64,000 bases of DNA from Roseibium aquae (GTDB taxonomy: Bacteria; Pseudomonadota; Alphaproteobacteria; Rhizobiales; Stappiaceae). A model generated the notes under the pieces. It worked only from the letters and a program-made list of their open reading frames with translations. It was not told where the DNA came from and made no database searches. The stretch spans positions 1 to 64,000 of the forward strand of contig NZ_VXDC01000014.1 of the NCBI RefSeq assembly GCF_008711285.1, in the 5' to 3' direction. This document shows positions 11,051 through 63,909 of this stretch, piece after piece; the stretch's first letter is position 1; the number at the start of each line of letters is the position of its first letter. The position numbers and the translations under genes were made by a program.

Positions 11051-11126
11051 TGCTCACCTCTACCCGTGTCTGGGCCCGCACGTTACCCGAGCCGCCCCCC
11101 GCGATCGCCGAACGCTCGGCGGATCT

Positions 11127-12377
11127 TTATCCATCCAAACCGTATAGCGAATGGAGAGTCCGAACGGCAAGTTCCGTATAGGCAGAATCAATAAGAACGG
11201 AAATTTTTATCTCTGAAGTTGTTATGGCGCGAATATTTATGCCTTTTTCCGCCAAACCCCGGAAACACTGCGCAGCCACACCCGCATGAGACCGCATACC
11301 GATTCCGATCACCGAGACCTTCACGACATCGGTTGCCCACTCGACGTTCTGGAAACCGATTTCGCGGCGATTGGCCTCAAGAACTGACAGCGCGCGCTGA
11401 TAATCCGTCTCGGGCACTGTGAAGGTGATATCGGTCGTTTTCCCATCCGGAGAGATATTTTGGACAATCATGTCGACGTTGATATTCGCATCGGCAAGCG
11501 GTCCGAACACCGATTGGGCCACCCCGGGTTTGTCCGCCACATCGCGGATTGAGATCTGGGCTTCATCTTTGGCAAACGCAATGCCGGTCACAACTTGCTG
11601 TTCCACGAGTTCATCCTCGTCGCAGATTAGGGTTCCAGGGGGAAGATTTCCGTCGCCGACCTGTGGCGCATCCGGATCATCGAAACTTGAACGCACGAAC
11701 GTGGGCACTCCATGTACCATGGCCATTTCGACCGAACGCACCTGAAGCACCTTGGCGCCCAGCGAGGCCATTTCCAGCATCTCTTCAAACGACACGCGAT
11801 CCAGCCGCCTGGCCTTCGGTACGATCCGCGGATCGGTTGTGTAGACACCGTCAACATCGGTGTAAATGTCGCAACGGTCGGCCTTGATCGCGGCGGCGAT
11901 GGCGACGGCGCTTGTATCGGACCCGCCCCGGCCGAGGGTGGATATGCGATTGTCCGGAGACAATCCCTGAAAACCCGCCATTACGGCGACCTGCCCCTGC
12001 CCAAGACGGTCGATCAGGACGCTGCCATCGATCTCGCGGATGCGGGCGGCGCCATGGTTTTCGTCGGTTTTGATCGGCACCTGCCAACCCTGCCAGGAGC
12101 GGGCGTTGACGCCCAAATCCTGCAATACGATGGCCAATAGCCCGGACGTGACCTGCTCACCAGAGGCGACCACCGCATCGTACTCACGGGCATCGTGCAG
12201 GGGCGACGCCTGGCGGCAATACTCAACAAGCTTGTTGGTCTGGCCGGCCATGGCCGAGACAACAACCGCCACTTCATGCCCGGCATCGACCTCCCGTTTC
12301 ACGTGGCGGGCCACGTTTCGGATACGGTCGAGGTCGGCCACAGAGGTACCGCCGAATTTCATAACCAGTCGCGCCAT
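11127..12377 (-). CDS. lysC: Aspartate kinase
   Basis: Phosphorylates aspartate in the first step to lysine, threonine and methionine. The 416-residue product begins MARLVMKFGGTSV, the kinase nucleotide-binding start, and contains the GRGGSDTSAVA substrate motif. Two ACT domains in the C-terminal third (from about residue 265) bind amino-acid effectors, so feedback inhibition is expected. The open frame extends 114 codons upstream, but that extension covers the lysC-ubiG promoter gap and even enters ubiG, so the internal ATG at 12377 is the real start. Head of the minus-strand block. Confidence 0.97.
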   Translation of the reverse strand: MARLVMKFGGTSVADLDRIRNVARHVKREVDAGHEVAVVVSAMAGQTNKLVEYCRQASPLHDAREYDAVVASGEQVTSGLLAIVLQDLGVNARSWQGWQVPIKTDENHGAARIREIDGSVLIDRLGQGQVAVMAGFQGLSPDNRISTLGRGGSDTSAVAIAAAIKADRCDIYTDVDGVYTTDPRIVPKARRLDRVSFEEMLEMASLGAKVLQVRSVEMAMVHGVPTFVRSSFDDPDAPQVGDGNLPPGTLICDEDELVEQQVVTGIAFAKDEAQISIRDVADKPGVAQSVFGPLADANINVDMIVQNISPDGKTTDITFTVPETDYQRALSVLEANRREIGFQNVEWATDVVKVSVIGIGMRSHAGVAAQCFRGLAEKGINIRAITTSEIKISVLIDSAYTELAVRTLHSLYGLDG

Positions 12378-50075: not shown

Positions 50076-50377
50076 ACCCTTGGCCCCGCGTGAGTCTGCA
50101 GTTTCGTGCAGCCGATCAATTCGGCCCGAAAATGAACGCGCAAGCTTGCGCGAAGGTCAAGGCCAAGTTTCGGCCGCCTCTCCAACTACCAACGACATTT
50201 TGGAGCATCAGCCCAACTCAGACCCCGAAAGCCAGAGCTGTCGAAACACAACCAACCCAATCCGCCATCGCTCAATTTGGAGCGTAACGTGTGGGAACAG
50301 GGAAAAGTTGCGCCGCCGTACCGTGATTGCCAGGGCCGCTCCTGGCCAAAACAACTTCAATTCTAAAGGACTACGCC
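50076..50377. other. Divergent promoter region upstream of the glycerate kinase gene
   Basis: A 302-base gap between two diverging genes. It contains the 16-base palindrome at 50137-50152 and an AAAGGA ribosome-binding site just before the TTG start of the kinase. I could not name promoter boxes. No gene seen. Confidence 0.5.
50137..50152. promoter_or_regulatory. Perfect 16-base palindrome
   Basis: CGCGCAAGCTTGCGCG lies 62 bases upstream of the unknown membrane protein gene and 226 bases upstream of the kinase. A dimeric regulator could bind here; the LacI-type protein encoded beyond the kinase is one candidate, but its family usually prefers a central CG, which this site lacks. Confidence 0.3.
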
Positions 50378-51517
50378 TTGCGCCTCGACGATGCAAAACA
50401 AGACCTCAAACACCTCTTCATGATGGGAATTGCCGCTGTCCAGGGAGAAACCGCCGTCGCAGAGGCTTTGGAAGCCGAAAAAACAGCCCCGTTCGACGCG
50501 GTATTGGCAATCGGGAAAGCTGCATGCTCCATGTATCTGGGCGCGCTGCCCTTCCTCGCCCGACATCACCAGGCTCTAGTGATCACAAAATACGCCCATT
50601 CCGAAGACCCACGCCTTGCCGGAACACCAGCGGACATCCTGGAAAGCAGCCATCCCATCCCCAATGACAACAGTCTGAGCGCTGGCCAAAAGGCGCTCGA
50701 CTTTGTTCAGGCCTGTGATTCGAACACAAATCTGTTGGTCTTGGTTTCCGGCGGTGCATCCGCGCTAGCCGAGGTGCTCGTGGATGGCACCAGTCTGGAT
50801 GAATACCGCAATTTGAACGAAAGATTGATTTCGGGCGGAGCGGACATTGCCGAAATCAATGCACAGCGGAAAAGGCTGTCGCGCATCAAGGCCGGGCGGC
50901 TCCTGAGCCACTTTCATGGAGGCCGTGTCCTGACACTGGCCATTTCCGATGTTGCAGGGGACGATATCGGGGTCATAGGGTCCGGGATAGGCGCTTGTTC
51001 CAATCGCGACATCAATTATCGCGGGAAAATCATCGCATCGAACGCGATTGCACGGCACCGGATCGTCGCGACGGGTAGGGAGCGGGGCTATGCGATCGGG
51101 TCGGAAGCCGAAAACCTTTACGGCGATGTGGGAGCTGTGGCGACCCGGCTCGATGAAATCTGGACGGATGGTCAGCCCGGTCTTTATGTCTTTGGCGGCG
51201 AACCAACCATAGAATTGCCACCGAACCCCGGCGAGGGCGGTCGCAATCAGGCTCTGGCGCTGCTCTTGGCGCAGCGGATCCAAAACCGCCCGGACCTTGT
51301 CATCCTGGTTGGCGGAACAGATGGCACCGATGGCGTGACAGCGTCAGCCGGAGGGCTTGTTGACGGGCAGACCTGGTTCCGGGCACCCGATCCGGAACTG
51401 GCGCTCTCGACCGCCAATTCGGGCCGCTATCTGCGCGAGGCGGGGGATGTCCTGGTGACGGGACCAACAGGAACCAACGTGATGGACCTGGTCTTGGCGG
51501 TGAAGACGGCGGGGTGA
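50378..51517 (+). CDS. Glycerate 2-kinase (GckA/TtuD, MOFRL type)
   Basis: Phosphorylates D-glycerate to 2-phosphoglycerate, feeding hydroxypyruvate or tartrate breakdown into glycolysis. The 379-residue protein has the DUF4147 domain with AIGKAACSMYLGA, VSGGASALAEV and RKRLSRIKAGRL, and the C-terminal MOFRL domain with GGEPTIELP, GEGGRNQALAL and GGTDGTDGVT. The start is TTG at 50378, five to seven bases after AAAGGA; no ATG fits, and a TTG at 50327 lacks a ribosome-binding site. It converges on the LacI gene. Confidence 0.92.
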   Translation: MRLDDAKQDLKHLFMMGIAAVQGETAVAEALEAEKTAPFDAVLAIGKAACSMYLGALPFLARHHQALVITKYAHSEDPRLAGTPADILESSHPIPNDNSLSAGQKALDFVQACDSNTNLLVLVSGGASALAEVLVDGTSLDEYRNLNERLISGGADIAEINAQRKRLSRIKAGRLLSHFHGGRVLTLAISDVAGDDIGVIGSGIGACSNRDINYRGKIIASNAIARHRIVATGRERGYAIGSEAENLYGDVGAVATRLDEIWTDGQPGLYVFGGEPTIELPPNPGEGGRNQALALLLAQRIQNRPDLVILVGGTDGTDGVTASAGGLVDGQTWFRAPDPELALSTANSGRYLREAGDVLVTGPTGTNVMDLVLAVKTAG

Positions 51518-51567: not shown

Positions 51568-52722
51568 TCATTCGCTGATTTGCGGAGCGAGGCGAACCCC
51601 CTTTGCGGGCGCGCTCTCGCGGATCCGCAGTTCCGGCTCGATCAGGATCGGACTATTGGGCACCCGCTCTCCCGCGATTTGTCTCAGCAGTGTCAGTGCG
51701 GCGAGACGTCCGATCTTGCCTGCATGATTGCGAACGGTCGTCAGTGCCGGCGTTCGACTGTCCACCCCTTCGATATCGTCATACCCGGTGATCGCCATTT
51801 CCGGCCCCGGCTCTATGCCAACTCGGCGAAGACCCGTCATCAGCCCAAGGGCCACAAGGTCGTTGAAGGCAACGAGAGCCGTCGGTCTTTGTTCCAGCGC
51901 CAGGACCGCCCGCACAGCCCCGCGTCCGTCCGCTTGGGTCATCAACTCTGGAAGATCAAGCTGCTGTTCCGGATCAATGCCCGCTTCCTGAAGGGCCTTA
52001 AGCCAACCCGCGTGGCGGTCCCTGCCGGTGGAACTCGACCGGCGCCCTCCAATCATGCCGATCCGCTTATGTCCAAGCGCAAGCACATGCCGTGTCATCC
52101 GATAACTGCCTGTCATGTCGTCACCGCGGACGCAGGGAGCCCAAACGCCCTTGACCTCGCGGGCGACGAGTGTTGTTGGCAATCCTTGATCGATCAGCCG
52201 GTTGATCTCTTCGGTCGTCGTACCGACCGAAGGACAAAGGATCAGCCCGTCGGCACGATGCTGCAGCAGTGTCTTGAGAAAGGCACGCTGACGGTTCACA
52301 TCGTCGCGATGATTGCAGATGAAGATCATCTGCCCCTGTTCTTCCATGACGTCTTCGAGTGCGGAAAACACCTCGGCGAAATACGGGTTCAAGATGTCAT
52401 GAACCGCTACACCGATTATCTGGGAACGGGACGTCCGCAGCGATGCGGCGGAACGATTGTAGATGTAGCCGACCCGGTCAGCTGTTTCCTTGACCTTGAG
52501 CCGCGTGTCTTCAGCGACAAGCGGACTGTCCCTCAAGGCAAGGGAGACCGTGGCCGTTGAAATCCCCAATTCGTCAGCGATGTGACCTAGCGTCAGGCGT
52601 TTGCCCGGCCTGACCGGCACGCCTTCCTCATCCGCCAACACGGCCCGGGAGATCCCGGCACTGTGGTCGCCCTGCCCCTTTTCCGCAGACGGTTTCGAGG
52701 GAGATCCGGCGTCATCTGACAT
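51568..52722 (-). CDS. LacI family transcriptional regulator
   Basis: A 384-residue regulator. About 40 variable residues precede the helix-turn-helix (LTLGHIADELGISTATVSLA, about residues 43-62), then the hinge and a periplasmic-binding-protein-like sensor domain with HDILNPYFAEVF and a C-terminal dimer part. Ligand is presumably a sugar or sugar acid. It converges on the glycerate kinase gene and follows an EamA gene on the same strand; either could be its target. The start at 52722 excludes a 40-codon unsupported extension. Confidence 0.92.
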   Translation of the reverse strand: MSDDAGSPSKPSAEKGQGDHSAGISRAVLADEEGVPVRPGKRLTLGHIADELGISTATVSLALRDSPLVAEDTRLKVKETADRVGYIYNRSAASLRTSRSQIIGVAVHDILNPYFAEVFSALEDVMEEQGQMIFICNHRDDVNRQRAFLKTLLQHRADGLILCPSVGTTTEEINRLIDQGLPTTLVAREVKGVWAPCVRGDDMTGSYRMTRHVLALGHKRIGMIGGRRSSSTGRDRHAGWLKALQEAGIDPEQQLDLPELMTQADGRGAVRAVLALEQRPTALVAFNDLVALGLMTGLRRVGIEPGPEMAITGYDDIEGVDSRTPALTTVRNHAGKIGRLAALTLLRQIAGERVPNSPILIEPELRIRESAPAKGVRLAPQISE

Positions 52723-52908
52723 CGTCTGTTTCACAATCCGAATGTGGCCCGGAACATGGCTCCGGCAAGTCTTGGCGCCAGGTGGCAGATCGCGGTTTCC
52801 AAGGACTGCAGGCACCGGATCGCGTGCGGAGGTTAGCGCCACCCTCTTGAAATTGCGACTGTAAACTGATTTCGCATTGCTGCGAGAACCCGAATTCCGC
52901 GAGCCCCA

Positions 52909-53853
52909 TCAACGTTCGGGAGGAAGTTCCGTGGCCACGGCAGTCCCTTTGACCCGTTCCCGGTACAAGATGAAGAGGCCCGAAGCAACGACGACAGAGG
53001 CGCCAGCAAGTGTGGCCCAGGACGGCACATCCGAGAAAATCAAATAACCCAGCGCGATCATCCAGACGATCTGGACATAAATGAACGGTGCAAGCACCGG
53101 CGCCGGCGAGATCCGGTGGGCGGCAATGAACAGCCAGTGGCCGAGTGCGCCCCAGACGCCGGTCGACAGCAGCAAGAGCCAGATCGTCAGCTCCGACGGG
53201 GTCTCCCAGACAGCCAAGCCGGCCGGCGCTGTCGCCAGCGCCGCGACAATCCCAGAAATAAACAGCATGCCCGCCGGAGACTCGGTTTCCGTCAACATAC
53301 GGGTCAACAAGGCGTAGAGCGCATAGGTCATCATGGCGGCAACAGAGTAGAGGGCCGCCCAGTGCATCCCGCCCATGCCCGGTTGGGTGACGATGAGAAC
53401 CCCGATAAAGCCGACGATGATGGCAATCCAGCGCTTGAGCCCCGCCCATTCCCCCAGAAGCGGGCCGGCCAGTGCGGTGACGACAAAGGGCGTGGCAAAC
53501 ATGATCGACATGGTTTCGGCAAGCTGGAGATATTGAACCGCCAGAAAATTGAAAACGGTGGTGAGAAGAAGACAGACCGCGCGCACGCCCTGCAGGACAG
53601 GCCGCCCCGTCTTCAAAATATCCGGGTTCGCCCAGACCCGGAACATCAAGAACGCGAGCACCACATGACTAAGAAAGCGGATCCAGACAATCTGCAGTGT
53701 TGGGACATGACTGCCGAGATATTTCGCCGTCGCATCGAGAATCGAAAAACACAGGCAGGCGAGGACGAGAAGCGCGATGCCAAGAATGGGATTGGCCGAG
53801 GCACGCGCAGGGGTATTGTCCCCGGTGTCAGGGGCCGGCTGGGTCATCCGCAT
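52909..53853 (-). CDS. EamA/DMT family transporter
   Basis: A 314-residue membrane protein with ten predicted helices in two EamA repeats. The motif CLCFSILDATAKYLG near the first helix is typical of the RhaT/S-adenosylmethionine-uptake-like DMT group in alphaproteobacteria. Substrate unknown. The ATG at 53853 or 53847 is the start; the frame upstream is open but unsupported. It lies between MarR and LacI genes, all on the minus strand. Confidence 0.9.
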   Translation of the reverse strand: MRMTQPAPDTGDNTPARASANPILGIALLVLACLCFSILDATAKYLGSHVPTLQIVWIRFLSHVVLAFLMFRVWANPDILKTGRPVLQGVRAVCLLLTTVFNFLAVQYLQLAETMSIMFATPFVVTALAGPLLGEWAGLKRWIAIIVGFIGVLIVTQPGMGGMHWAALYSVAAMMTYALYALLTRMLTETESPAGMLFISGIVAALATAPAGLAVWETPSELTIWLLLLSTGVWGALGHWLFIAAHRISPAPVLAPFIYVQIVWMIALGYLIFSDVPSWATLAGASVVVASGLFILYRERVKGTAVATELPPER

Positions 53854-54100
53854 AACTCGTTGTCGGCGTGGTTGGAGCAACCAGGCAGGGCTATGATCTC
53901 TTAGGACAGCGGAACCTCCGCAGCGCGACCTGATCGTCAACCCGGTGAACCTAGTGGCGCGGTTTGAAAAGGGGCGCAGGCAGAACGGCGGCGGCACTTG
54001 CCTGATAACAATAAAGACCACCGTCGACGTTCCCAAGGCCGGTTGCGTCACAAACGGTACGCCTCCGTACCCACCGGGACGAGCACGATCCCGGAAACCG

Positions 54101-54616
54101 TCAAGCCGCCGTCAACTCGTCGCTCTTGCTGCCAGCTTTGCCCTCATCATCTTCCATATCCGCATCGTGTTCTGGATCATTATCGACGGAAAGCGCCAGA
54201 TTCTTCTCAACCTGGCGAAGCAGTTTGCGCAGCTTTTTCCTGTCTTTGTCATCCAGACCAGCCATTGCTTCGCGCTCAAGACGCTTCCAGGACTTGTCAA
54301 CGGACTCGACGAGGGCGCGGCCTGCTTCGGTCAGATGAACACGGGCAAGCCGGCCATCGGTATCGGAGACTTGCCGGCGGACATATCCTTGCGCGGACAG
54401 CCGGGTCACCATCTTTGTCACGGTGGGAGGTTGGACGCCCAGCGCCAGGGCCAATTGACTCATTGTCCGTCCGTCGGCATCCGCCAGGACCTTCAGAACC
54501 AACTCCTGACCCGGGTGAAGACCGATGCGCATCAAATGGCTACCCGAGCGCGACCTGAGGGCCTTGGAGGCCTGAACAAGACGGAATGTCACGCTTTTCT
54601 TGTAGTTGAAAGCCAT
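54101..54616 (-). CDS. MarR family transcriptional regulator
   Basis: A 171-residue winged-helix regulator. The DNA-binding region is at about residues 40-100: SQLALALGVQPPTVTKMVTRL as recognition helix (read with one break), followed by the wing VSDTDGRLARVHLT. The C-terminal helices are Lys/Arg/Glu-rich and end in an acidic tail (NDPEHDADMEDDEG). MarR proteins typically sense phenolics or oxidants; two quinone-reductase-like genes lie upstream on the same strand, 120 bases away, and are the natural targets. Confidence 0.93.
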   Translation of the reverse strand: MAFNYKKSVTFRLVQASKALRSRSGSHLMRIGLHPGQELVLKVLADADGRTMSQLALALGVQPPTVTKMVTRLSAQGYVRRQVSDTDGRLARVHLTEAGRALVESVDKSWKRLEREAMAGLDDKDRKKLRKLLRQVEKNLALSVDNDPEHDADMEDDEGKAGSKSDELTAA

Positions 54617-54736
54617 TTTGATAGTCCCCATCACCGTCAACGGTCCGCAACGCGGCCAAAACCAGACGCCGCATGTCACAACCAGTAATCGGGGTGTTTA
54701 ACCGTCAAATGACAATGCTGTCCCGAACGCAGCTTT

Positions 54737-55324
54737 TTAAAAGCCGGCAAGCTTTTTCTGTATTTTTTGGAGGTAATCAGACCGGCTTTCAGGGGTCGAA
54801 CTGTCCATTTTGTAGTGCGCGAGATAGAGCGACCGGCAATTTGGGGCGCACAACGCGCGAATCCCCCGCAAAATGGTTTTCCGGCCGGGTTCGCCCATCA
54901 GCTTGGAGACCAGCCAGCTCGCCCCGCAGGTTGTCACAACGCCAACCTTTTGGATATGAAGCATTTTTGGCTTCATGGGCGCCCTTTCCGTCGGCATCTC
55001 AAAGGTCACATGCGGCACCCAGACGCGATCGAGCCAGCCCTTGAGCATGGCTGGCAACCCAAACCACCAGGTTGGATAGACAAAAAGCAGTTTGTCGCAC
55101 CAGGCGAGATGCTCCAGGTGTTCGGCAACCGGTGTCTGATTGCTGGCGGCATCATGGTACCCCCGGCGCTCATCGGCGGACATGGCCGGATTGAACCCCA
55201 TGGCGTAAAGGTCAAGCACACGAACCTCGTTTCCGCCCTGTTCAAGCGTATCGACAACCTGGGCACAAACGGCTGCGCTGAAGCTCTCCTGGCATGGGTG
55301 GCAGTAGACAACCAGCACACGCAT
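54737..55324 (-). CDS. Flavodoxin-fold NAD(P)H:quinone reductase-like protein (second of pair)
   Basis: A 195-residue FMN-type flavodoxin_2 protein related to KefF/MdaB/NQO. It starts MRVLVVYCHPCQESF, the phosphate-binding loop, and has the flavin-contacting YPTWWFGLPAMLKGWLDRV. Such enzymes reduce quinones by two electrons, avoiding semiquinones. Its ATG shares one base with the stop of the paralogue upstream (TGATG), so the pair is coupled. Confidence 0.92.
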   Translation of the reverse strand: MRVLVVYCHPCQESFSAAVCAQVVDTLEQGGNEVRVLDLYAMGFNPAMSADERRGYHDAASNQTPVAEHLEHLAWCDKLLFVYPTWWFGLPAMLKGWLDRVWVPHVTFEMPTERAPMKPKMLHIQKVGVVTTCGASWLVSKLMGEPGRKTILRGIRALCAPNCRSLYLAHYKMDSSTPESRSDYLQKIQKKLAGF

Positions 55325-55905
55325 CAAAAGGTCTCCATGGCGCGGCCGACACGATCCAGAAAGCGATGACGCGATGGAGCGTCGGCGCGATTCATGTTAT
55401 AGAGCGCATGATAACGGAACGCGGCGCCCGGACGGATAAGCGCCCGCAAAACCCGCCCTGCGAGCTTTCGAGGCGGATCCCCCACCAGCAGGACGCGGAA
55501 CCGCGAACCGCCATAGGTGGTAACGACTGACAGTTTTCGAATATGTGTCAAGGCTGGAACCACCTCACCGCCGCGCATCTTGAAAGAAACACCGGGAAGA
55601 AAGACGCGATCGAAATATCCCTTTAAAATGGCGGGATGCCCGAAATTCCAAACCGGCGCAACGATCACCAATGCCTCCGCTGCGAGCAGCCGGTCCACAT
55701 GGGACGCAACCGTCCGGCGGTTGTCCGGGATGTCGTGGTAGCCCAACCGCTCCTGGCGGGAAAGCAGCGGATCGAACCCTTCCGCGTAAAGATCGCAATC
55801 ATCAATATCGTGCCCGGCATGGGTCAAGCCCTCTACAACCCGGTGATGCAGGGACGCTGCAAAACTGGTTTCAACCGGATGGGCATACAGCACAAGAACC
55901 CGCAC
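55324..55905 (-). CDS. Flavodoxin-fold NAD(P)H:quinone reductase-like protein (first of pair)
   Basis: A 193-residue paralogue of the next gene with the same fold: MRVLVLYAHPVETSFAASL, then APVWNFGHPAILKGYFDRVF and a VVTTYGGSRFR loop. The WNFG variant of the flavin loop and other differences suggest a distinct substrate. It is the first gene of the pair; the promoter should lie in the 107 bases after the FAD-oxidase gene. Confidence 0.92.
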   Translation of the reverse strand: MRVLVLYAHPVETSFAASLHHRVVEGLTHAGHDIDDCDLYAEGFDPLLSRQERLGYHDIPDNRRTVASHVDRLLAAEALVIVAPVWNFGHPAILKGYFDRVFLPGVSFKMRGGEVVPALTHIRKLSVVTTYGGSRFRVLLVGDPPRKLAGRVLRALIRPGAAFRYHALYNMNRADAPSRHRFLDRVGRAMETF

Positions 55906-56012
55906 CTAGCCTCCCACGAAGTGGTGATCTGGCCACACGAAACCAGAACCGGCTATCCACCGTATTTCCCGGCTCCGCATTGTGCGGTGTTGCGGCGCAA
56001 TGTCACACAGCC

Positions 56013-57425
56013 TCACGACTCCCCCCTTTGCAAGCCAGGAAAAAGAAACAACTTGTCGGAAGAAAAATCGTAGCTCGGATCTTCCCAGGCGATCATCTTG
56101 CCCGGATTCAGAAGCCCTTTTGGATCCGCCTTGCGCTTGAAATCGAGTTGAACCTGATCGGTCTGCTTCATCCCGCCCTCCTCGAGGGTGTAGCGGTGCG
56201 GATTGAAGATCGGACAGCCATTGTCTTCGTGCAGCTTGATAATCTCGTTAAGCCGCTCTTCATTGGTGTAGCGCACGACCGGCAAACCAAAACAGGTCAC
56301 CTTCCCATCGAAGCGCACGTATTCCAGGTGACCGGGGACTTCGTCCCCGAGCAACTCGGTGATCTTGCGCACGCGTTCGACCTGGTTGGGGAAGGGATAA
56401 AGAACCTGGAGGTAAGTGATCGAAGGATCGACCCGCAGCCCGCGCAAAGTGGTGTGGTTCCATGTCAGCTCGTATGCGGGCGGCAATCCCTTCTTTTCCG
56501 CGTCGGTCGCCGTGTCGGACCGGTAAAGCAGCTCTGCCCTGGGGTTGCGGGCAACGAAGGCGGTAAAGGCATCCATGGCAAACGGCGCCACCATGCACAC
56601 CACGACAGAGGTTTCCCGGCGCAGAAATTTCTGATGCCTCAGAAAGTAATCGTGCGGCAGGGGGGCCGCGATCGGTGCGATTTCCTTGAGCAGCAATCCG
56701 TCACGGTTGCCCAGATCGTCTGCGAAGTGGACGCTGTCCATGAACGTTTTGAAGCCGACAATCACATCGACCCAGTCATAGGAAGCCGTCAGGGGCATCT
56801 CAACTTCGGTAATCACGCCGTTGGTACCATAGGCATGCAGCACCTTTTGCAAATCTTCCCCCTGAAGGTCGAGGACTTTCGGCTCAGCTTCCATAGTGAC
56901 GACCCGAAGGCGGATGACGTTGCCGAGATCGCGCAAGCCCCCCCAATTGATCGATCCGATTCCGCCCGACCCACCGGCGACGAACCCGCCGATCGTTGCC
57001 GTGCGGTAGGTCGAGGGATGCATCCGCAACTCCTGACCAGACTGCGCCCCCGCCTTTTCGTCGATGTCCGAGAGGATGGCACCCGCTTCGGCAACAACGA
57101 CACCCGGACGGATCTGCTTGACTGCCCGCATCTCGGCCAGGTTGAGCACAACACCGCCCGAGAGCGGCATGGCCTGCCCGTAATTCCCCGTTCCCGCACC
57201 CCGCGCGGTCACCGGCACATCATGAGCATAACAGGCCCGCAGGACCTGTATGACTTCGGCTTCGTTTCTGGGGGTGACGACAAGATCGCCCGTCACATGA
57301 TCCAGTTGCTGTTTCAGGACTGGCGAGTACCAAAAAAAGTCCCGGCTCTTCTGCTTCACGATCTGGGGATTGTCCTCAATGGCAATCCCTGCGATATCCT
57401 GCACAAGCCGCTCCAGATCGCTCAT
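56013..57425 (-). CDS. FAD-binding (PCMH-type, GlcD-like) oxidoreductase
   Basis: A 470-residue flavoprotein of the vanillyl-alcohol-oxidase/GlcD superfamily. The PCMH FAD-binding domain (about residues 40-225) shows LVVTPRNEAEVIQVLRAC, ARGAGTGNYGQAMPLSGG and ATIGGFVAGGSGGIGSINWG. The C-terminal part ends in LLNPGKMIAWED, as in GlcD and lactate/2-hydroxyacid oxidases. Its start overlaps the deaminase-like gene by 4 bases (ATGA), so it belongs to the ABC-deaminase operon. The substrate is probably the deaminated product of that pathway or a hydroxyacid fragment of it; inference. Confidence 0.9.
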   Translation of the reverse strand: MSDLERLVQDIAGIAIEDNPQIVKQKSRDFFWYSPVLKQQLDHVTGDLVVTPRNEAEVIQVLRACYAHDVPVTARGAGTGNYGQAMPLSGGVVLNLAEMRAVKQIRPGVVVAEAGAILSDIDEKAGAQSGQELRMHPSTYRTATIGGFVAGGSGGIGSINWGGLRDLGNVIRLRVVTMEAEPKVLDLQGEDLQKVLHAYGTNGVITEVEMPLTASYDWVDVIVGFKTFMDSVHFADDLGNRDGLLLKEIAPIAAPLPHDYFLRHQKFLRRETSVVVCMVAPFAMDAFTAFVARNPRAELLYRSDTATDAEKKGLPPAYELTWNHTTLRGLRVDPSITYLQVLYPFPNQVERVRKITELLGDEVPGHLEYVRFDGKVTCFGLPVVRYTNEERLNEIIKLHEDNGCPIFNPHRYTLEEGGMKQTDQVQLDFKRKADPKGLLNPGKMIAWEDPSYDFSSDKLFLFPGLQRGES

Positions 57426-58774
57426 GTCACCTTATCCTCGGTCTTCATCAAATGGTCGAGCTCCCGAAAATCGGGAAGCGTCCGGTCAATCGTTCGGCCC
57501 GCGCGCAAGACTGTACGCGGCCCATGTGGACGGCTCAGGAGTTCATTCCAGGACCGGACACGAAAAATCAGGACATCCGCGGGCCCGCCTACTTCGAAGC
57601 GCCCGGCTGCTAAACCGATCATGTCCGCCGGCCCGGAACTGACCGCCGTGATCCAGTCCCCCACCGGGTGATCAAGATGCGCTATGCGCGTTGCCTGCGC
57701 ATAGACCTCGATCAAGTCGAGATCACCATAAGCGAAGAACGGATCCCGGGTATTGTCGGATGCAACGGCCACCGGAATCCCGCGATCTTTCAGCTCGTGC
57801 AGGAGAGTGACGCCCCGGCGGCGCGGTGTTCGCTCCTTCTGCCGGTCCTGAAGATAAAGATTGCACATCGGCAACGACACGACGCCGATCCCGGCTTGTG
57901 CAACCAAATCGAGCGTTTCCTGAATGTGCTTTTCCGGCTGCATGGCGAGGGAACAACAGTGCCCGGCCACGATCCGCCCTGGAAACTGCAAGCGCAGCGC
58001 CGTTTCCGCGATCTTCTTCAGGCTCACGGCCTCGGGGTCGAGGGTTTCATCGACATGAAAATCGAGATCCAGCCCCCGTTCCATGGCCGTTCGAAAGACC
58101 GCTTCGAGATCGCGTTCCAAATCCGGCACCATATAGGTCACGCCCCCCAAAACACCGCCGTTTTGAGCCATGCGGTCCGCAATCCGGGGCAGATAACCGG
58201 GATCCTCGGCTACACGCTCGATCCCGAAGAGGCAGACGCCCTGCATCGCGATCCGGCCCGCCCACCGATCCCGCATCATCTCGAACACGGGCCACGATAT
58301 GCCGTCTTGCGGAGGCAAGCTGTCGATATGGGTGCGGATGACAGCTGTTCCGTGGGCATAGGCACAGCGAAGGGCAAACTCCATACGCGCAGTCAAATCT
58401 GCGGCAGACCAGTTGGCCGCCCGGTCTTCACCGACGGCTGTCAGTGCGCCCATGAAACTCCCGTCGGGGTTGGGTTTGCGCGGCCAGATATGCCCTTTGT
58501 CGAGATGGGTATGCATATCGACAAGGCAGGGCAGAACCAATCCGCCATCCAGATCGACCCGGGCATCCGACCCTGCTGACGGCCGGGAACCGGACAGCGG
58601 TTGGATTGCCGCGATGCGGCCGTTCCGGATCTCGATGTCCACGGCAAGCAAATCGCCGTCTTGGAGCGACTGCGATCCGGATGGAAGCGGATCCTTGAGC
58701 AAGGAGGCAGGGACCCGGCCATTGAGCAGAACCGCATCGCCGGTTAAGGGAACACATAAGGCGTCCATGGACAT
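57422..58774 (-). CDS. Cytosine-deaminase-like amidohydrolase
   Basis: A 450-residue metal-dependent TIM-barrel hydrolase of the CodA/AtzC group. Metal ligands are seen as HTHLD (H88, H90), FHVDETLD, AGHCCSLA and SDNTRDPF. CodA deaminates cytosine, and relatives act on isocytosine, creatinine or hydroxylated heterocycles, so the natural substrate is open. It lies between the permease (one-base overlap, TAATG) and the FAD oxidase (4-base overlap), so transport, deamination and oxidation are coupled in translation. Confidence 0.92.
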   Translation of the reverse strand: MSMDALCVPLTGDAVLLNGRVPASLLKDPLPSGSQSLQDGDLLAVDIEIRNGRIAAIQPLSGSRPSAGSDARVDLDGGLVLPCLVDMHTHLDKGHIWPRKPNPDGSFMGALTAVGEDRAANWSAADLTARMEFALRCAYAHGTAVIRTHIDSLPPQDGISWPVFEMMRDRWAGRIAMQGVCLFGIERVAEDPGYLPRIADRMAQNGGVLGGVTYMVPDLERDLEAVFRTAMERGLDLDFHVDETLDPEAVSLKKIAETALRLQFPGRIVAGHCCSLAMQPEKHIQETLDLVAQAGIGVVSLPMCNLYLQDRQKERTPRRRGVTLLHELKDRGIPVAVASDNTRDPFFAYGDLDLIEVYAQATRIAHLDHPVGDWITAVSSGPADMIGLAAGRFEVGGPADVLIFRVRSWNELLSRPHGPRTVLRAGRTIDRTLPDFRELDHLMKTEDKVT

Positions 58775-59655
58775 TAATGCTCCCGCTTGAGTGCACTTTC
58801 ATGCCACGAGCGCAGCAGAAGATGCGAAATGAGATTCATGACAAGGAAAATCAGGATCCCGGTCACCGAAATGAGAAGGAGCGCGGCGAACATGCGCGGC
58901 ATGTTCAAACGGTAGCTTGCTTCCAGGATTTGATTGGCCAGACCCGATCCGGAGCCTGCCGAACCGGCAACAAATTCCGCGACAATGGCCCCGATCAGCG
59001 ATAACCCGCCCGCGATACGTAAACCGCCGAGAAAATATGGCATCGCGGCTGGCAGACGAAGATAGCGCAAGGTCTGCCAGCGGGTTGCCCCGTAAAGGGC
59101 GAACAGGCTCCGCAAGTTGTGATCGGCCGAGTTCAGCCCGAGGGTCGTGTTCGACAACACCGGAAAAAAGGCGACAATCCAAGCGCAGATCAGCAAACCG
59201 GCCTGCACTGAGTCCACATAGATGAAAATCAACGGGGCGATCGCGATGATCGGCGTCACCTGCAAGATGACGGCAAACGGAAAGAACGAGATCTCGATCC
59301 ATTTCGACTGCGTGAAAAGGACAGCCAATGCCAGGCCACCGACGGTGGCGATAAACAGCGCCCCGAAGGTGATTTTCAGCGTGTTGAGAAGTGCGACCGA
59401 CAAGATCGGCCAGTCTGCGATGAGCGCTTCCAGCACAAGTCCGGGCCTTGGAACGATGTAGTGCGGAATCTCGTTCCAGACGCAGACCCGGTCCCAAAGC
59501 ACAACAGACAAAGCAAGGATCACGACCGGCAGCAGCCATCGTCCGACCCGTTCGCGCCGGGCCGCACGCAACTTCGCGACTTCCGCCGGATCGAGCCCGA
59601 CCGTCGCGTTGGGCATGGGAGCTTCAAGTCCATGTTGTTCACTTGCAACGGTCAT
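58774..59655 (-). CDS. ABC transporter permease (NitT/TauT/ThiX type)
   Basis: A 293-residue inner-membrane permease with six predicted helices and the BPD_transp_1 coupling loop ALYGATRWQTLRYLRLPAAM contacting the ATPase. The type is that of nitrate/taurine/sulfonate and thiamine-pyrimidine importers. Overlaps the deaminase-like gene by one base and follows the ATPase gene by 32 bases. Confidence 0.94.
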   Translation of the reverse strand: MTVASEQHGLEAPMPNATVGLDPAEVAKLRAARRERVGRWLLPVVILALSVVLWDRVCVWNEIPHYIVPRPGLVLEALIADWPILSVALLNTLKITFGALFIATVGGLALAVLFTQSKWIEISFFPFAVILQVTPIIAIAPLIFIYVDSVQAGLLICAWIVAFFPVLSNTTLGLNSADHNLRSLFALYGATRWQTLRYLRLPAAMPYFLGGLRIAGGLSLIGAIVAEFVAGSAGSGSGLANQILEASYRLNMPRMFAALLLISVTGILIFLVMNLISHLLLRSWHESALKREH

Positions 59656-59687
59656 GATCCCCCCATCAGCCCTTTGGAAGACGTATG

Positions 59688-60503
59688 CTACAGGTGGTCA
59701 TTTGCATCCATCGCACTGTGCAAAGCCTGCGAAACCGACCGGCAATGATCCGCATAGAGAGTGGAGGTGCGGAACGCCTCGGTCCGCGGATAAGGAGCAT
59801 CGATTGCGATGTCGTTCACAATCCGCCCAGGCCGGGCGGCCATCACAACGATGCGGTTCGACAAATAGACGCTTTCAAACACCGAATGGGTGACGAAGAT
59901 CACTGTCCAGCCAAACCGCTGCCAGAGGGCCAGAAGATCGTTGTTCAGCTTGAACCGGGTGATCTCATCGAGCGCCGCGAACGGTTCGTCCATCAGAAGA
60001 ACCTTCGGCTTTGTCACCAAGGCCCGGGCGATGGAGACCCGCATTTTCATGCCGCCAGACAGTTCGCGCGGATAGCTTTGTGCAAAGCTGGCAAGACCGA
60101 CCATTTCCAGGGCTTCCATGACCGTGTCCCGCGCCGCCGATTTCGAGATCCCCTTCAAGCGCAAGGGCAGCCAAACATTGCCGAAAACGGTCGCCCAGGG
60201 CATCAGCGTCGGCTCCTGGAAGACAAAACTGAGTTCGTGCTCGGGTTGGGATGCCGTTTCCTGTGGCCAGCGCAGACGGCCGGAGGTCGGACCTGTCAGC
60301 CCAGAAATGATCCGCAAGGCCGTCGACTTACCGCAGCCCGACGGCCCCAGAAGCGACAGGAACTCGCCAGCCCGGATACCGAGCGACAAATCCTTCAAGG
60401 CAACCGTTCCATTTGAGAATGTTTTGGACACCCCTTCCAGGGAGACAATATCTCCCTGCGGGCCCACGTCTTGGGACGCCTTGACCAGTGTTTTGGCTAT
60501 CAT
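59688..60503 (-). CDS. ABC transporter ATP-binding protein (NitT/TauT type)
   Basis: A 271-residue ATPase with Walker A GPSGCGKST, Q-loop FQEPTLMPW, signature LSGGMKMRVSIARAL, Walker B VLLMDEPFAALDE and H-loop VTHSVFES. Sequence type matches SsuB/TauB/ThiZ. Sits between the binding-protein and permease genes on the same strand. Confidence 0.95.
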   Translation of the reverse strand: MIAKTLVKASQDVGPQGDIVSLEGVSKTFSNGTVALKDLSLGIRAGEFLSLLGPSGCGKSTALRIISGLTGPTSGRLRWPQETASQPEHELSFVFQEPTLMPWATVFGNVWLPLRLKGISKSAARDTVMEALEMVGLASFAQSYPRELSGGMKMRVSIARALVTKPKVLLMDEPFAALDEITRFKLNNDLLALWQRFGWTVIFVTHSVFESVYLSNRIVVMAARPGRIVNDIAIDAPYPRTEAFRTSTLYADHCRSVSQALHSAMDANDHL

Positions 60504-60572
60504 TCACCGCACCACAGGAACATGTTCAAACCAGGTGTTTGAGCAAACGCCTGGGTCGGGCATTTTGGATAT

Positions 60573-61583
60573 CTAGTTCGCAAGCAAGGCCGCCTTCTCT
60601 TCGAGCCCAACGCCCTTGTTCACAAATTCAAGGGTATAGGCCTGAGTGTAATCCACGTCGGCGCTCACAACACCGGCGGCGACCATCTTGTCGTAGAAAG
60701 ACTTGTTCCGCTCGTCCGTCATCGCGCCGATGCCCATGGTCTCCGCATCTCCGCTGTCAACGATCCCGTATTCCTTGAGCTTTTCGATGGAGAAGGCAAG
60801 CTGGGCGTCCGACATTCCCGGATTGTCGGCCTTGATCAGGTCAAGCGCGGCGGAATTGTCGCCGTACAGGAAATTGACCCAGCCGATGGCGGACGCGTCT
60901 ACAAAGCACGCCACAACCTCGGGCTTGGTTTCGATCAACTCGTTGCGCGTTTCAACGGTGGTGGAATAGGTATCGTACCCGAAATCCGCAATGAGGAAGA
61001 TATTTGGCTCGAACCCGCCTTCCGTTTGCACCGCGAAGGGCTCCGAGGTCACGTACCCCTGCTGACCCACGCGCGGATCAGCGATGAAGGGCGCCGGATT
61101 GAATGTGTAAGGCCGGACCTGGTCGAGCGAAAAACCGAACTCCGACACCATCCACTGATAGTAGGAATTAAGCCCGGCCTTACCGAGCAACAGGTTGATC
61201 CCCTTGAGACTTTCCCATGTATCCAGACCCTGCCCCGGATGGGTCATGATGATCTGCGGCTCTTTCTGGAAATGAGCGGCCACCACCTTTGTCGGAATCC
61301 CCTGCTCCACGGCGGAGAAGGCTTGAAGCATGCTTCCGCCCATCAGAAAATCGATCTTTCCTGTGGGGAGCAGGATCCGGTTGTTCACTTGCGGTCCACC
61401 GGGCCGGATCTCGACCTGAATGCCGCACGCTTCATATGTTCCATCGGCAACGGCTTGATAGTAACCGCCATGTTCGGCCTGCGCGACCCAGTTGGTGCCG
61501 AAAACAACCTTTTCCAAGTCCTGGGCACCGGCTGGTACCGAGGCCATCACAACAGCAAGTCCAAGTCCATAGATCACTCGCAT
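60573..61583 (-). CDS. ABC transporter substrate-binding protein (NMT1/THI5-like)
   Basis: A 336-residue periplasmic protein. Signal peptide at residues 1-20 (MRVIYGLGLAVVMASVPAGA). The fold is that of the NMT1/SsuA-like family: VVFGTNWVAQAEHGGYYQAV at the start, then GGPQVNNRILLPTGKIDFLM and a C-terminal lobe. Members bind thiamine pyrimidine (HMP), riboflavin, sulfonates or nitrate. GAGGGGAAC precedes the ATG at 61583; the frame extends 34 codons further upstream without support. First gene of the ABC-deaminase-oxidase operon. Confidence 0.93.
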   Translation of the reverse strand: MRVIYGLGLAVVMASVPAGAQDLEKVVFGTNWVAQAEHGGYYQAVADGTYEACGIQVEIRPGGPQVNNRILLPTGKIDFLMGGSMLQAFSAVEQGIPTKVVAAHFQKEPQIIMTHPGQGLDTWESLKGINLLLGKAGLNSYYQWMVSEFGFSLDQVRPYTFNPAPFIADPRVGQQGYVTSEPFAVQTEGGFEPNIFLIADFGYDTYSTTVETRNELIETKPEVVACFVDASAIGWVNFLYGDNSAALDLIKADNPGMSDAQLAFSIEKLKEYGIVDSGDAETMGIGAMTDERNKSFYDKMVAAGVVSADVDYTQAYTLEFVNKGVGLEEKAALLAN

Positions 61584-61983
61584 TTGGCACGTTCCCCTCT
61601 GGTTCCAGGTATGCGTCAGGTCATGCCCCACAGGTCCTGCCTTCGCATCCGCCGATCTCTGACTGCCATGCAACCCTCGCGCCAACCGGGTTTTCCATAT
61701 TTATTCAAGACTTAGCGTGTCACTCTCAAGGACACGGCCTGTAAATCCGCCGGCAAACCAATCGATTGCTGCATTATTGTGCACAGCCTCACCTGACATG
61801 CAAAGCCTATCCGCTCCGTTGATTGTGGCGGGGAGCATTTCAACCGAGAGAACAAGGCACCCCCAGAAAAAAGATGCCCTACCGACATGGAAGTTGCAGA
61901 CTTCTTCGCGAAAGCCGTTTCCGGCGCGCGGCGGACTGGTCTAGGCTGATCTGGAACCTGAAACATCCAAGGGAGCCAAACTC
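61584..61983. other. Divergent promoter region between binding-protein and RidA genes
   Basis: A 400-base gap with a relatively AT-rich middle (about 61690-61790). A short inverted repeat CGTGTC/GACACG (61716-61736) is the only structure I noted. It must carry promoters for both arms of the heterocycle locus; I could not name the boxes. No gene seen. Confidence 0.5.
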
Positions 61984-62370
61984 ATGTTGCAAGCGCTTCT
62001 GCCGAAGAAAATCCGCGCGCCTTTCGCTCGCTACAGCCATGGTATGGTCGTCCCGGCCGGACATCGGGTGGCATTCGCTTCGGGCCAGCTCGGCATATCG
62101 GCCGAAGACCAAGTGCCTCCGGATATCATCGGCCAGACCCGGCTTTGTTTCGAGAACATTTCTGCCATTCTCGCGGACGCCGGCATGAGCATGCATGATC
62201 TTGTGCGGATCAATGCCTTCGTCACCGCACGCGAGCACTTGGAAGGCTACATGCAAATCCGCGACACGGTGATCGGCACACCTCCCCCAGCTTCCACCTT
62301 GATGATTGTCTCGGGTTTCGCAAGACCCGAATTCCTGGTTGAGGTCGAAGTGATCGCTGCGGCTCCCTGA
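61984..62370 (+). CDS. RidA/YjgF family protein
   Basis: A 128-residue trimer-forming protein. RidA hydrolyses reactive enamine/imine intermediates; other subfamilies are dedicated to one catabolic pathway. The binding-pocket arginine is in GFARPEFLVEVEVIAA; the usual PARST stretch is PASTLMIVS here, so it belongs to a divergent subfamily. It heads the arm divergent from the ABC operon and precedes the 8-oxoguanine-deaminase-like gene, which suggests a pathway-specific deaminase role. Confidence 0.92.
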   Translation: MLQALLPKKIRAPFARYSHGMVVPAGHRVAFASGQLGISAEDQVPPDIIGQTRLCFENISAILADAGMSMHDLVRINAFVTAREHLEGYMQIRDTVIGTPPPASTLMIVSGFARPEFLVEVEVIAAAP

Positions 62371-62565
62371 CCGTTGAACTTGACCCTTGAACCTGATCAT
62401 CATCGCCGGATGGTGACCTCCCTGTAGCACCTCCCGGATCGCGGCCTTGCCTTACGGTCCGAAGCACAGGCACTAAAATCCGATATAAATCCTGCCCTCA
62501 TCCAATTCGGGCGGAGTGTCCCATGCCGTCCTCAAAGCCTGTAGGTTTATTCAAGGAAACCGGTC

Positions 62566-63909
62566 ATGCGCATCTGGATCAAAAACCCGCTCGCGATCCT
62601 TGCAGATAACGCGGGAGGCGGGCTGGTCGTCGAGAACGGCGAGATTAGCGAACTCTTGCCTTCCGGCACCCAGCCGAGCGTGCCGGCCGACGGCATATAC
62701 GATGCGAGCAATCACGTTGTGTTGCCGGGATTGATCAATACCCATCATCACTTCTATCAAACGCTGACCCGTGCCCATCCGGATGCCATCAACAAAGAGC
62801 TGTTTCCCTGGTTGAAGGCCCTTTATCCGATCTGGGCCCAAAACCTCACACCGGACAACTTCCGGATCGCTACACGGCTGGCGCTCACAGAACTGTTGCT
62901 GTCAGGCTGTACCACGGCCGCCGATCATCACTATGTCTTTCCAGCCGGTCTGGAAAACGCAATGGATATTCAGGCGGAGGAGGCCGAAAGGGTCGGCCTG
63001 CGCATGACCTTGACCCGCGGATCCATGAATCTGTCGCAAAAAGACGGCGGCTTGCCGCCAGACAGCATCGTCCAGGACGAGGACACCATTTTGAGCGACT
63101 GCGAAAGGGTCCTGTCCCGCTATCACAATCGCTCCAAAGGAGCTCGGTTGCAGGTCGCGCTGTCGCCATGCTCGCCTTTTTCCGTGACGCCCAGATTGAT
63201 GCGCGAAACCGCATCCCTAGCCGAGAAGCATGACTGCCGCCTTCATACTCATCTTGGCGAAACACATGACGAGAACAGCTTTTGCCTCGAACGATTTCGA
63301 TGCCGCCCGGTTGACTATCTGGAGGAGACCGGATGGCTCGGCTCAAGAACATGGCTCGCCCACGGCATTCATTTCAACGATGACGAAATCCGCCGCCTTG
63401 GCCATGCATGCGTCGGTGTCTGTCACTGTCCGACCTCCAACATGGTGCTGGCATCGGGGCATTGCCGGACCAAAGACCTCGAAGCGGCGGGGTGCCCTGT
63501 GGGCTTGGGCGTTGACGGCTCGGCTTCAAATGACAACTCGAACCTGATCGAAGGCGTGCGCCATGCCTTGATGATCAACCGGCTGACCTACGATGCGGCG
63601 TCCGTCAGTCATCTGGACGCTCTGCGCTGGGCAACAAAGGGATCGGCCCGGTGCCTCGGGCGCGAGGATATCGGCGAAATCACACCGGGAAAGATGGCCG
63701 ACCTGGCTTTTTACAAGCTGGATGAATTGCGTTTTTCCGGGGCGGGCGATCCGATTGCGGCGATTGTCCTGTGCGGGGCCCATCGGGCGGACCGGGTAAT
63801 GGTCGGCGGCGAGTGGCTGGTCGAGGACGGCCAACCGGCGAGGCTCGATGCGCATCGGCTCCGGCGGGAGCACAGCGCCGCGGCGCTGGACTTTGTCCGC
63901 CGGCTTTGA
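62566..63909 (+). CDS. 8-oxoguanine deaminase-like amidohydrolase
   Basis: A 447-residue amidohydrolase of the AtzA/TrzN/8-oxoguanine deaminase group. Metal ligands: LINTHHHFYQTLTRAHPD (H60-H62), HTHLGETHDE, HGIHFND and GVDGSASNDNSN. The NTHHHFYQT variant with LFPWLKALYPIWA downstream is characteristic of bacterial 8-oxoguanine deaminases; isoxanthopterin deaminases are close relatives. AAGGAAACCGGTC precedes the ATG. It follows the RidA gene by 195 bases. Product would be uric acid if the substrate is 8-oxoguanine. Confidence 0.92.
   Translation: MRIWIKNPLAILADNAGGGLVVENGEISELLPSGTQPSVPADGIYDASNHVVLPGLINTHHHFYQTLTRAHPDAINKELFPWLKALYPIWAQNLTPDNFRIATRLALTELLLSGCTTAADHHYVFPAGLENAMDIQAEEAERVGLRMTLTRGSMNLSQKDGGLPPDSIVQDEDTILSDCERVLSRYHNRSKGARLQVALSPCSPFSVTPRLMRETASLAEKHDCRLHTHLGETHDENSFCLERFRCRPVDYLEETGWLGSRTWLAHGIHFNDDEIRRLGHACVGVCHCPTSNMVLASGHCRTKDLEAAGCPVGLGVDGSASNDNSNLIEGVRHALMINRLTYDAASVSHLDALRWATKGSARCLGREDIGEITPGKMADLAFYKLDELRFSGAGDPIAAIVLCGAHRADRVMVGGEWLVEDGQPARLDAHRLRREHSAAALDFVRRL

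Follow-up and report, generated by a model that had tools for sequence, protein, structure and literature searches.

Gene content and organization of the locus

The window analysed here is a stretch of 64,000 bases from Roseibium aquae, the first part of contig NZ_VXDC01000014.1 (C5 in our set), which runs on to position 68760 in a genome of 4.4 Mb. It carries a two-armed locus that probably serves the uptake and catabolism of pterins, the oxidised ring of folate. The minus-strand arm encodes a periplasmic binding protein of the NMT1/THI5-like type, the ATPase and permease of an ATP-binding cassette (ABC) transporter, an amidohydrolase, a flavin adenine dinucleotide (FAD) enzyme and two flavodoxin-fold reductases, and the plus-strand arm encodes a Rid-superfamily protein and a second amidohydrolase resembling 8-oxoguanine deaminase (Table 1). 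The initial annotation of this DNA had proposed an importer and the breakdown, step by step, of an aminated ring; pterins were among its options. That proposal is supported by the present analysis, and all genes named in it were recovered in place and on the expected strand. It missed a creatininase-family gene, which is located outside the window, where it follows an MFS and a SprA-related gene.

The FAD enzyme and deaminase genes overlap by 4 bases, as do the two reductase genes, and the deaminase and permease genes share a single base. Judged from their sequence, these joints are as in one transcription unit. For the binding protein, a start at ATG 61583 (336 aa, with a signal-peptide-like beginning) is likelier than the TTG at 61685 of the listed open reading frame (ORF).

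Table 1. Genes of the locus and its flanks (contig positions, which are also those of the window up to 64,000)
Gene product	Position	Strand	Basis
Flavodoxin-fold NAD(P)H reductase b	54737-55327	-	Pfam Flavodoxin_2
Flavodoxin-fold NAD(P)H reductase a	55324-55905	-	Pfam Flavodoxin_2
FAD_binding_4 flavoenzyme, relative of 6v42	56013-57425	-	E 2.5e-216 to 6v42
Amidohydrolase, NCBIfam name cytosine deaminase (PRK07583); predicted pterin deaminase	57422-58774	-	633 bits, cut-off 403
ABC transporter permease	58774-59655	-	Pfam BPD_transp_1
ABC transporter ATPase	59688-60503	-	Pfam ABC_tran
Periplasmic binding protein, NMT1/THI5-like	60573-61583 (listed ORF to 61685)	-	Pfam NMT1
Rid-superfamily protein without catalytic Arg	61984-62370	+	Pfam Ribonuc_L-PSP
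8-oxoguanine-deaminase-like amidohydrolase, optional neighbour	62566-63909	+	NCBIfam PRK08203, 668 bits, cut-off 532
MarR-family regulator, operon membership doubtful	54101-54679	-	Pfam MarR
Creatininase-family protein, past the window end	66544-67404		PF02633, sole match in the genome
LacI regulator	51568-52842
EamA transporter	52909-54051
DUF4147/MOFRL protein	50327-51517

The LacI regulator and the EamA transporter are found near the operon in 12/80 and 15/80, respectively, of the related loci described below. The DUF4147/MOFRL protein is presumably of the glycerate kinase type.

The FAD enzyme groups with an oxygenase labelled as acting in folate catabolism

The FAD enzyme, which we take to be of the 'VAO-type', is 67% identical to PDB entry 6v42 over residues 2-461 of the 462 used. 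The title of this entry reads 'Crystal structure of the flavin oxygenase with cofactor bound involved in folate catabolism'. A fold search with the model of the window enzyme, which is of middling quality (pLDDT 73) and served mainly to reach PDB titles, returned 6v42 with a Z score of 42.5 over 431 residues (59% identity in the structural alignment), followed by lactate dehydrogenases at 27. In a tree of 47 rows, the window enzyme and 6v42 share a 30-row clade (support 100/99) that leaves the distant copies outside. The rows nearest to 6v42 are two from Mesorhizobium and one from a Rhizobiaceae member, and their loci carry the same gene set; the nearest named relatives of the window enzyme are found in Roseibium and other Stappiaceae. 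The neighbourhood of the 6v42 gene itself was not located, the best matches being about 75% identical among the loci and genomes and 66% among the plasmids.

The locus had been called uncharacterised, a description that does not hold for the FAD enzyme, whose solved relative is labelled as a folate-catabolism oxygenase. With this key oxygenase family already labelled and a pterin deaminase family known, a system of this kind cannot be called uncharacterised.

The gene set is conserved and linked

A scan of GTDB contigs with the FAD enzyme yielded at least 588 confirmed relatives; counts were made on the best 80 loci among them. These loci were chosen by FAD-enzyme similarity, are mutually related and are in some cases broken by contig ends. 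The deaminase and at least one reductase are present in all 80, the permease in 78, the ATPase in 77, the binding protein in 76, the Rid gene in 75, the creatininase in 65, the 8-oxoguanine-deaminase-like gene in 20 and the MarR gene in 17. The creatininase figure is that of tblastn; clustering of ORFs gave 61/80. All six gene kinds of the minus arm occur together in 76/80 loci, and together with the Rid gene in 75/80, which answers strongly in the affirmative whether the genes travel together, as the initial annotation had asked. The linkage is more than chance. The reductase pair, whose membership had been left undecided, belongs to the set; some relatives show only one of the two.

An even draw across the Pseudomonadota, searched with a broader model, placed the FAD enzyme in 32/398 genomes at 37 places. 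A divergent set of 22 loci covers 23 of these 37 places, mostly divergent ones, and contains the deaminase in 18 loci, the ATPase in 18, the binding protein in 17, the creatininase in 17, the permease in 16, a reductase in 14, the Rid gene in 12, the MarR gene in two and the 8-oxoguanine-deaminase-like gene in one. Among 397 Hyphomicrobiales genomes queried with 6v42 (E ≤ 1e-150, at most four candidates scored in each), 131 carry the FAD enzyme. The same module was also found in other gene orders on plasmid records of Rhizobium johnstonii, Pantoea, a Comamonadaceae member, Roseateles (a record flagged 'unverified organism') and Salipiger, so that the linkage spans alpha-, beta- and gammaproteobacterial records. 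In the stretch of the Pantoea module shown, a PDR/VanB-type reductase is encoded and no flavodoxin-type reductase, a swap that suggests the reductase as electron donor to the FAD enzyme. The gene set is widespread, and it is little studied.

Several related genes were seen outside the canonical arrangement. Genes resembling RutB or biuret hydrolase, scoring below the cut-offs of those families, lie near two divergent module copies (L123, 10736-11551; L128, 4760-5557). Two loci of the window's own genus, L142 (genome G046) and L143 (G065), hold a Rhizobium-like copy of the operon with FAD-enzyme identities of 65 and 64%. Both fall within the Rhizobiaceae group (100/100), a placement suggesting that the operon was lost and then regained through horizontal transfer. 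Loci L138-L140 of other Stappiaceae carry a second copy of the FAD-enzyme family at about 9.3 kb (42-43% identity), with no module deaminase or binding protein found in the stretch; L139 and L140 also carry, within about 9 kb of this copy, a creatininase resembling that of the window genome. Plasmid pADP-1, the atrazine plasmid of Pseudomonas sp. ADP (L144), encodes at 10815-12146 a relative of the module deaminase (55% identity across 81% of the L131 copy), with BMP-type ABC genes and atzDEF as its neighbours.

Deaminase, binding protein and Rid protein

The metal-binding and catalytic residues of the minus-strand amidohydrolase (HxH, H..E, H, D) are invariant in 22/22 aligned sequences. Among ten deaminases compared, eight match all four residue patterns, and those of Roseateles and Salipiger miss one each. 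A passage of PMC6186785 describes Asp315 (CodA numbering), which follows the catalytic Asp, as critical for the specificity of CodA. This position is occupied by Asn in 22/22 aligned sequences (Asn341 in the window), so that the CodA-type residue is missing, and the name cytosine deaminase is taken to be too narrow for this protein.

Two pterin deaminases are compared in parts of PMC9513972, where their mutual identity is given as 36-37%. The Variovorax enzyme has 399 aa, is 37.0% identical to Arad3529 and is followed downstream by a gene annotated as endoribonuclease (PMC9513972). In the Pantoea module, too, the deaminase has 399 aa and a Rid gene comes after it, and the deaminase of the R. 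johnstonii operon is 37% identical to that of the Comamonadaceae member, 35% to that of Roseateles, 37% to that of L131 and 35% to that of Salipiger. We read the window amidohydrolase as a predicted pterin deaminase. A further structure, 2paj, we take to be an isoxanthopterin deaminase.

The AlphaFold model of the binding protein (pLDDT 88) has as its nearest folds thiamin-bound 4nmy (Z 29.1), the ThiY protein 3ix1 that binds the pyrimidine FAMP (27.7) and Thi5 (25.7). PQQ-binding PqqT (22.1), the sulfonate-binding SsuA (21.7) and the nitrate-binding NrtA (20.1) rank lower. As modelled, the protein is of the thiamin/pyrimidine-type NMT1 fold.

The Rid protein had been described as a reactive-imine handler. 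According to passages of PMC4433059, an Arg is required for imine hydrolysis, Ser is found instead in about 10% of RidA proteins, and the groups Rid4-Rid7 lack this Arg and have activities given there as completely unknown. Arg is absent from residues 101-106 in 24/24 aligned Rid proteins, including the place of the catalytic Arg of RidA (Arg105 in E. coli TdcF). The catalytic place is taken by an invariant Ser104 in the alignments with YabJ and YjgH and by Ala103 in that with TdcF, while Tyr17 and Glu120 are kept in 24/24. Because of the missing Arg, the description as an imine handler should be dropped.

Evidence for and against a pterin substrate

The substrate had been held not to be readable from the sequence. 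It can be read further than that: the kinship of the FAD enzyme with 6v42, the thiamin/pyrimidine fold of the binding protein, a deaminase without the CodA Asp and the known occurrence of a pterin deaminase beside a Rid-type gene together point to pterins, and on this ground we consider the pterin operon likely.

Several points weigh against it. The activity of every protein of the window is predicted only. The folate-catabolism label on 6v42 comes only from its PDB title, and no paper naming this code was found in the open-licence literature. The 80 loci were picked by likeness of the FAD enzyme and are related among themselves, and the deaminase is absent from 4/22 divergent loci. The score of the window deaminase exceeds the NCBIfam cut-off for cytosine deaminase (Table 1), identity between the R. 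johnstonii and Pantoea deaminases is no higher than 28%, and the link to Arad3529 is tentative, being drawn from identity levels akin to the reported ones. Folds of the thiamin type top the list for the binding protein, whose ligand may, by its model, be the thiamin pyrimidine. The only creatininase of the window genome, finally, falls outside the clade of operon-embedded copies.

MarR, creatininase and a possible second module

The last of these points concerns the flanks. A first creatininase tree showed long branches meeting; after removal of 17 of its 58 rows, a second tree of 41 rows separated 18 operon-embedded copies from a 23-row clade with a split of 100/99. The creatininase of the window genome lies in the latter clade, where the CobW-linked rows are also found. 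The reference for these rows is BrbF, which is described in parts of PMC9478397 as a creatininase-family formamidase of the riboflavin pathway that deformylates a 5-formylamino-pyrimidine, with a neighbourhood in the order MarR-creatininase-CobW.

These observations bear on an explanation in which two modules have merged at the site: a pterin core and a flanking riboflavin-precursor neighbourhood that would comprise the LacI and MarR regulators, a BrbF-type formamidase and the 8-oxoguanine-deaminase-like enzyme, the latter acting on 2-amino-4-oxopyrimidines. Genomes G339, G129 and G350, all of one family, hold two or three creatininase-family genes each, of which one lies inside the operon (the G350 operon groups with named Rhizobium rows) and an extra one stands in MarR-creatininase-CobW order, as for BrbF. 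In G339 a LacI-type gene is found beside that MarR gene, and the window also has a LacI gene near MarR. In G043, the MarR, MFS, SprA-related and creatininase genes are together with no operon between them, and the site is occupied in G046 by just an ATPase that shares 71% identity with that of the operon, the Rhizobium-like operon copy being elsewhere in the genome. Since MarR and creatininase thus occur without the operon or with a lone ATPase, they seem to be the older neighbours of the site, between which the operon came or went. On the other side, the BrbF rows are identified by their neighbours only, and the inner join with the creatininase of the window genome (91/87) has a long stem. 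The clade is not purely biosynthetic either, as it also contains the Labrenzia creatininase copies that adjoin a Rid gene, and the MarR genes of loci L200-L202 are only 34-45% identical to that of the window. We regard the merger of two modules as evenly poised between true and false. It overlaps with the pterin operon, the only differences concerning MarR, the creatininase and the deaminase of the plus arm. That deaminase and the sole creatininase of this genome look like parts of a second module sharing the site.

Two further observations were made at this site. A single ABC ATPase, 50-71% identical to that of the operon, lies beside MarR in L141 (G047), L152, L153, L155 and L203 (G046), and no match to the operon binding protein or permease was found in these stretches; such an ATPase may be a remnant or may serve a function of its own. 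A MarR operator was sought as a dyad in 22 divergent intergenic regions. The resulting motif agreed at 11/12 places only in six related loci (L032-L036 and L057), the window doing no better than shuffles, and it was dropped as shared ancestry.

Alternative substrates

The thiamin pyrimidine (HMP) or another aminopyrimidine could be the compound degraded, in which case it would be imported, deaminated, oxidised at its side chain by the VAO-type FAD enzyme and opened at the ring by the creatininase. The fold of the binding protein, nearest to thiamin- and FAMP-binding proteins and Thi5, and the membership of the deaminase in the cytosine-deaminase family agree with such a substrate. The FAD enzyme, however, belongs to the clade of the folate-catabolism oxygenase, and we consider catabolism of HMP improbable.

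The plus-strand amidohydrolase scores above the NCBIfam cut-off for 8-oxoguanine deaminase, an activity that is predicted only (Table 1). At E ≤ 1e-170, with up to four candidates scored per genome, its gene was found in 113 of the 397 Hyphomicrobiales genomes, 62 with the FAD enzyme and 51 without; the two genes lie within 15 kb of each other in 39/62 genomes carrying both. It was not found in 69/131 FAD-enzyme genomes. From the 74 genomes in which this gene occurs alone or more than 15 kb from the FAD enzyme, 20 loci were examined, and nine of these have a same-strand tandem of the gene with a creatininase gene (gap ≤ 330 bases), which the other 11 do not. One tandem locus, L164, also has transporter, Rid and MarR genes and no FAD enzyme at that site. 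The 8-oxoguanine-deaminase-like gene is optional in the module.

A single path with two deaminases, as initially proposed, therefore fits poorly with a gene that is not found in 69/131 FAD-enzyme genomes, is present without that enzyme in 51 and has a creatininase tandem of its own. Salvage of 8-oxopurines or purines, in which this gene would be central and the rest would degrade urate-like products, can draw on its PRK08203 score and on its proximity to the FAD enzyme in 39/62 genomes, but is rendered highly improbable by these same absences and by the tandem in 9/20 loci not near the FAD enzyme. A purine-only explanation was dropped on the co-occurrence data despite a xanthine dehydrogenase (XdhA) match elsewhere in the genome: the classical purine path is indeed absent from the window, as had been noted, and the organism itself has this match over the cut-off on another contig; allantoin genes were not searched. 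Hydrolysis of N2,N2-dimethylguanine, an activity described in part of PMC13054789, was considered as a role of the plus-strand deaminase and not used.

Proposed pathway

What we observe for the pterin operon is which genes it holds and that they are linked, that the FAD enzyme groups with the folate-catabolism oxygenase, to which fold class the binding protein belongs, and which residues are altered in the deaminase and in the Rid protein; we infer the step order, the exact pterin, the electron source and the substrates of the creatininase and Rid protein. The NMT1-type ABC transporter would import the pterin, and the amidohydrolase would remove its 2-amino group to give a lumazine. This deaminated pteridine would then be oxygenated by the FAD enzyme, which probably receives its electrons from the flavodoxin-type reductases. 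A creatininase-family hydrolase, present in most relatives examined, may next cut an amide or lactam of the product, a step suggested by analogy with BrbF. The Rid-fold protein without the imine-hydrolase Arg would carry out a further step.

If the FAD enzyme opened the pyrazine ring, the product would be an acylamino-pyrimidine like the substrate of BrbF. One may extend this to full opening of the pteridine ring, in which the oxygenase yields a 5-acylamino-pyrimidine, a BrbF-like creatininase deacylates it and the Arg-less Rid protein catalyses a new reaction, with one creatininase in Roseibium acting in the synthesis of flavins as well as in the breakdown of pterins. In Roseibium genomes of this kind the operon lacks a creatininase of its own and lies beside a single BrbF-like copy and the 8-oxoguanine-deaminase-like enzyme. 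We consider this extension rather unlikely.

Folate breakdown in the environment is described in part of PMC9513972 as not fully understood, with the path followed only to deaminated products, and among the open-licence papers listed only work on the deaminase was found for a full pterin pathway. The operon names a candidate transporter and candidate enzymes acting after the deaminase, with which the path can be rebuilt in vitro, and places a Rid protein that lacks the Arg of imine hydrolysis in a defined context.

Comparison with known systems

The Rut pyrimidine pathway (RutA-G) resembles the locus in outline, with a transporter, a flavin oxygenase, a reductase, a Rid-family protein and an amide hydrolase. 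It differs in that the oxygenase of the locus is of the FAD_binding_4 and not of the RutA type and in that the hydrolase is creatininase-type; the locus is not a member of this system.

BrbF shares with the locus the creatininase family and the MarR neighbour, and the copy of the window genome falls in the clade of the MarR-creatininase-CobW copies. Its role is biosynthetic, and in the window genome the operon separates MarR from the creatininase; SMc02977 itself is not among the rows of the tree.

The window amidohydrolase is longer (450 aa) than the pterin deaminases (EC 3.5.4.11; Arad3529 and the Variovorax sp. F1 PDA) and is named a cytosine deaminase. As in the module, the known enzymes are deaminating hydrolases encoded beside a Rid-type gene, and the identities of the R. 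johnstonii deaminase to the betaproteobacterial module deaminases (37 and 35%) are like the reported ones, a likeness by figures and not by direct alignment.

To 6v42/6v43, the window FAD enzyme is alike in sequence, fold and clade, and the rows nearest to this oxygenase are encoded in the same kind of operon.

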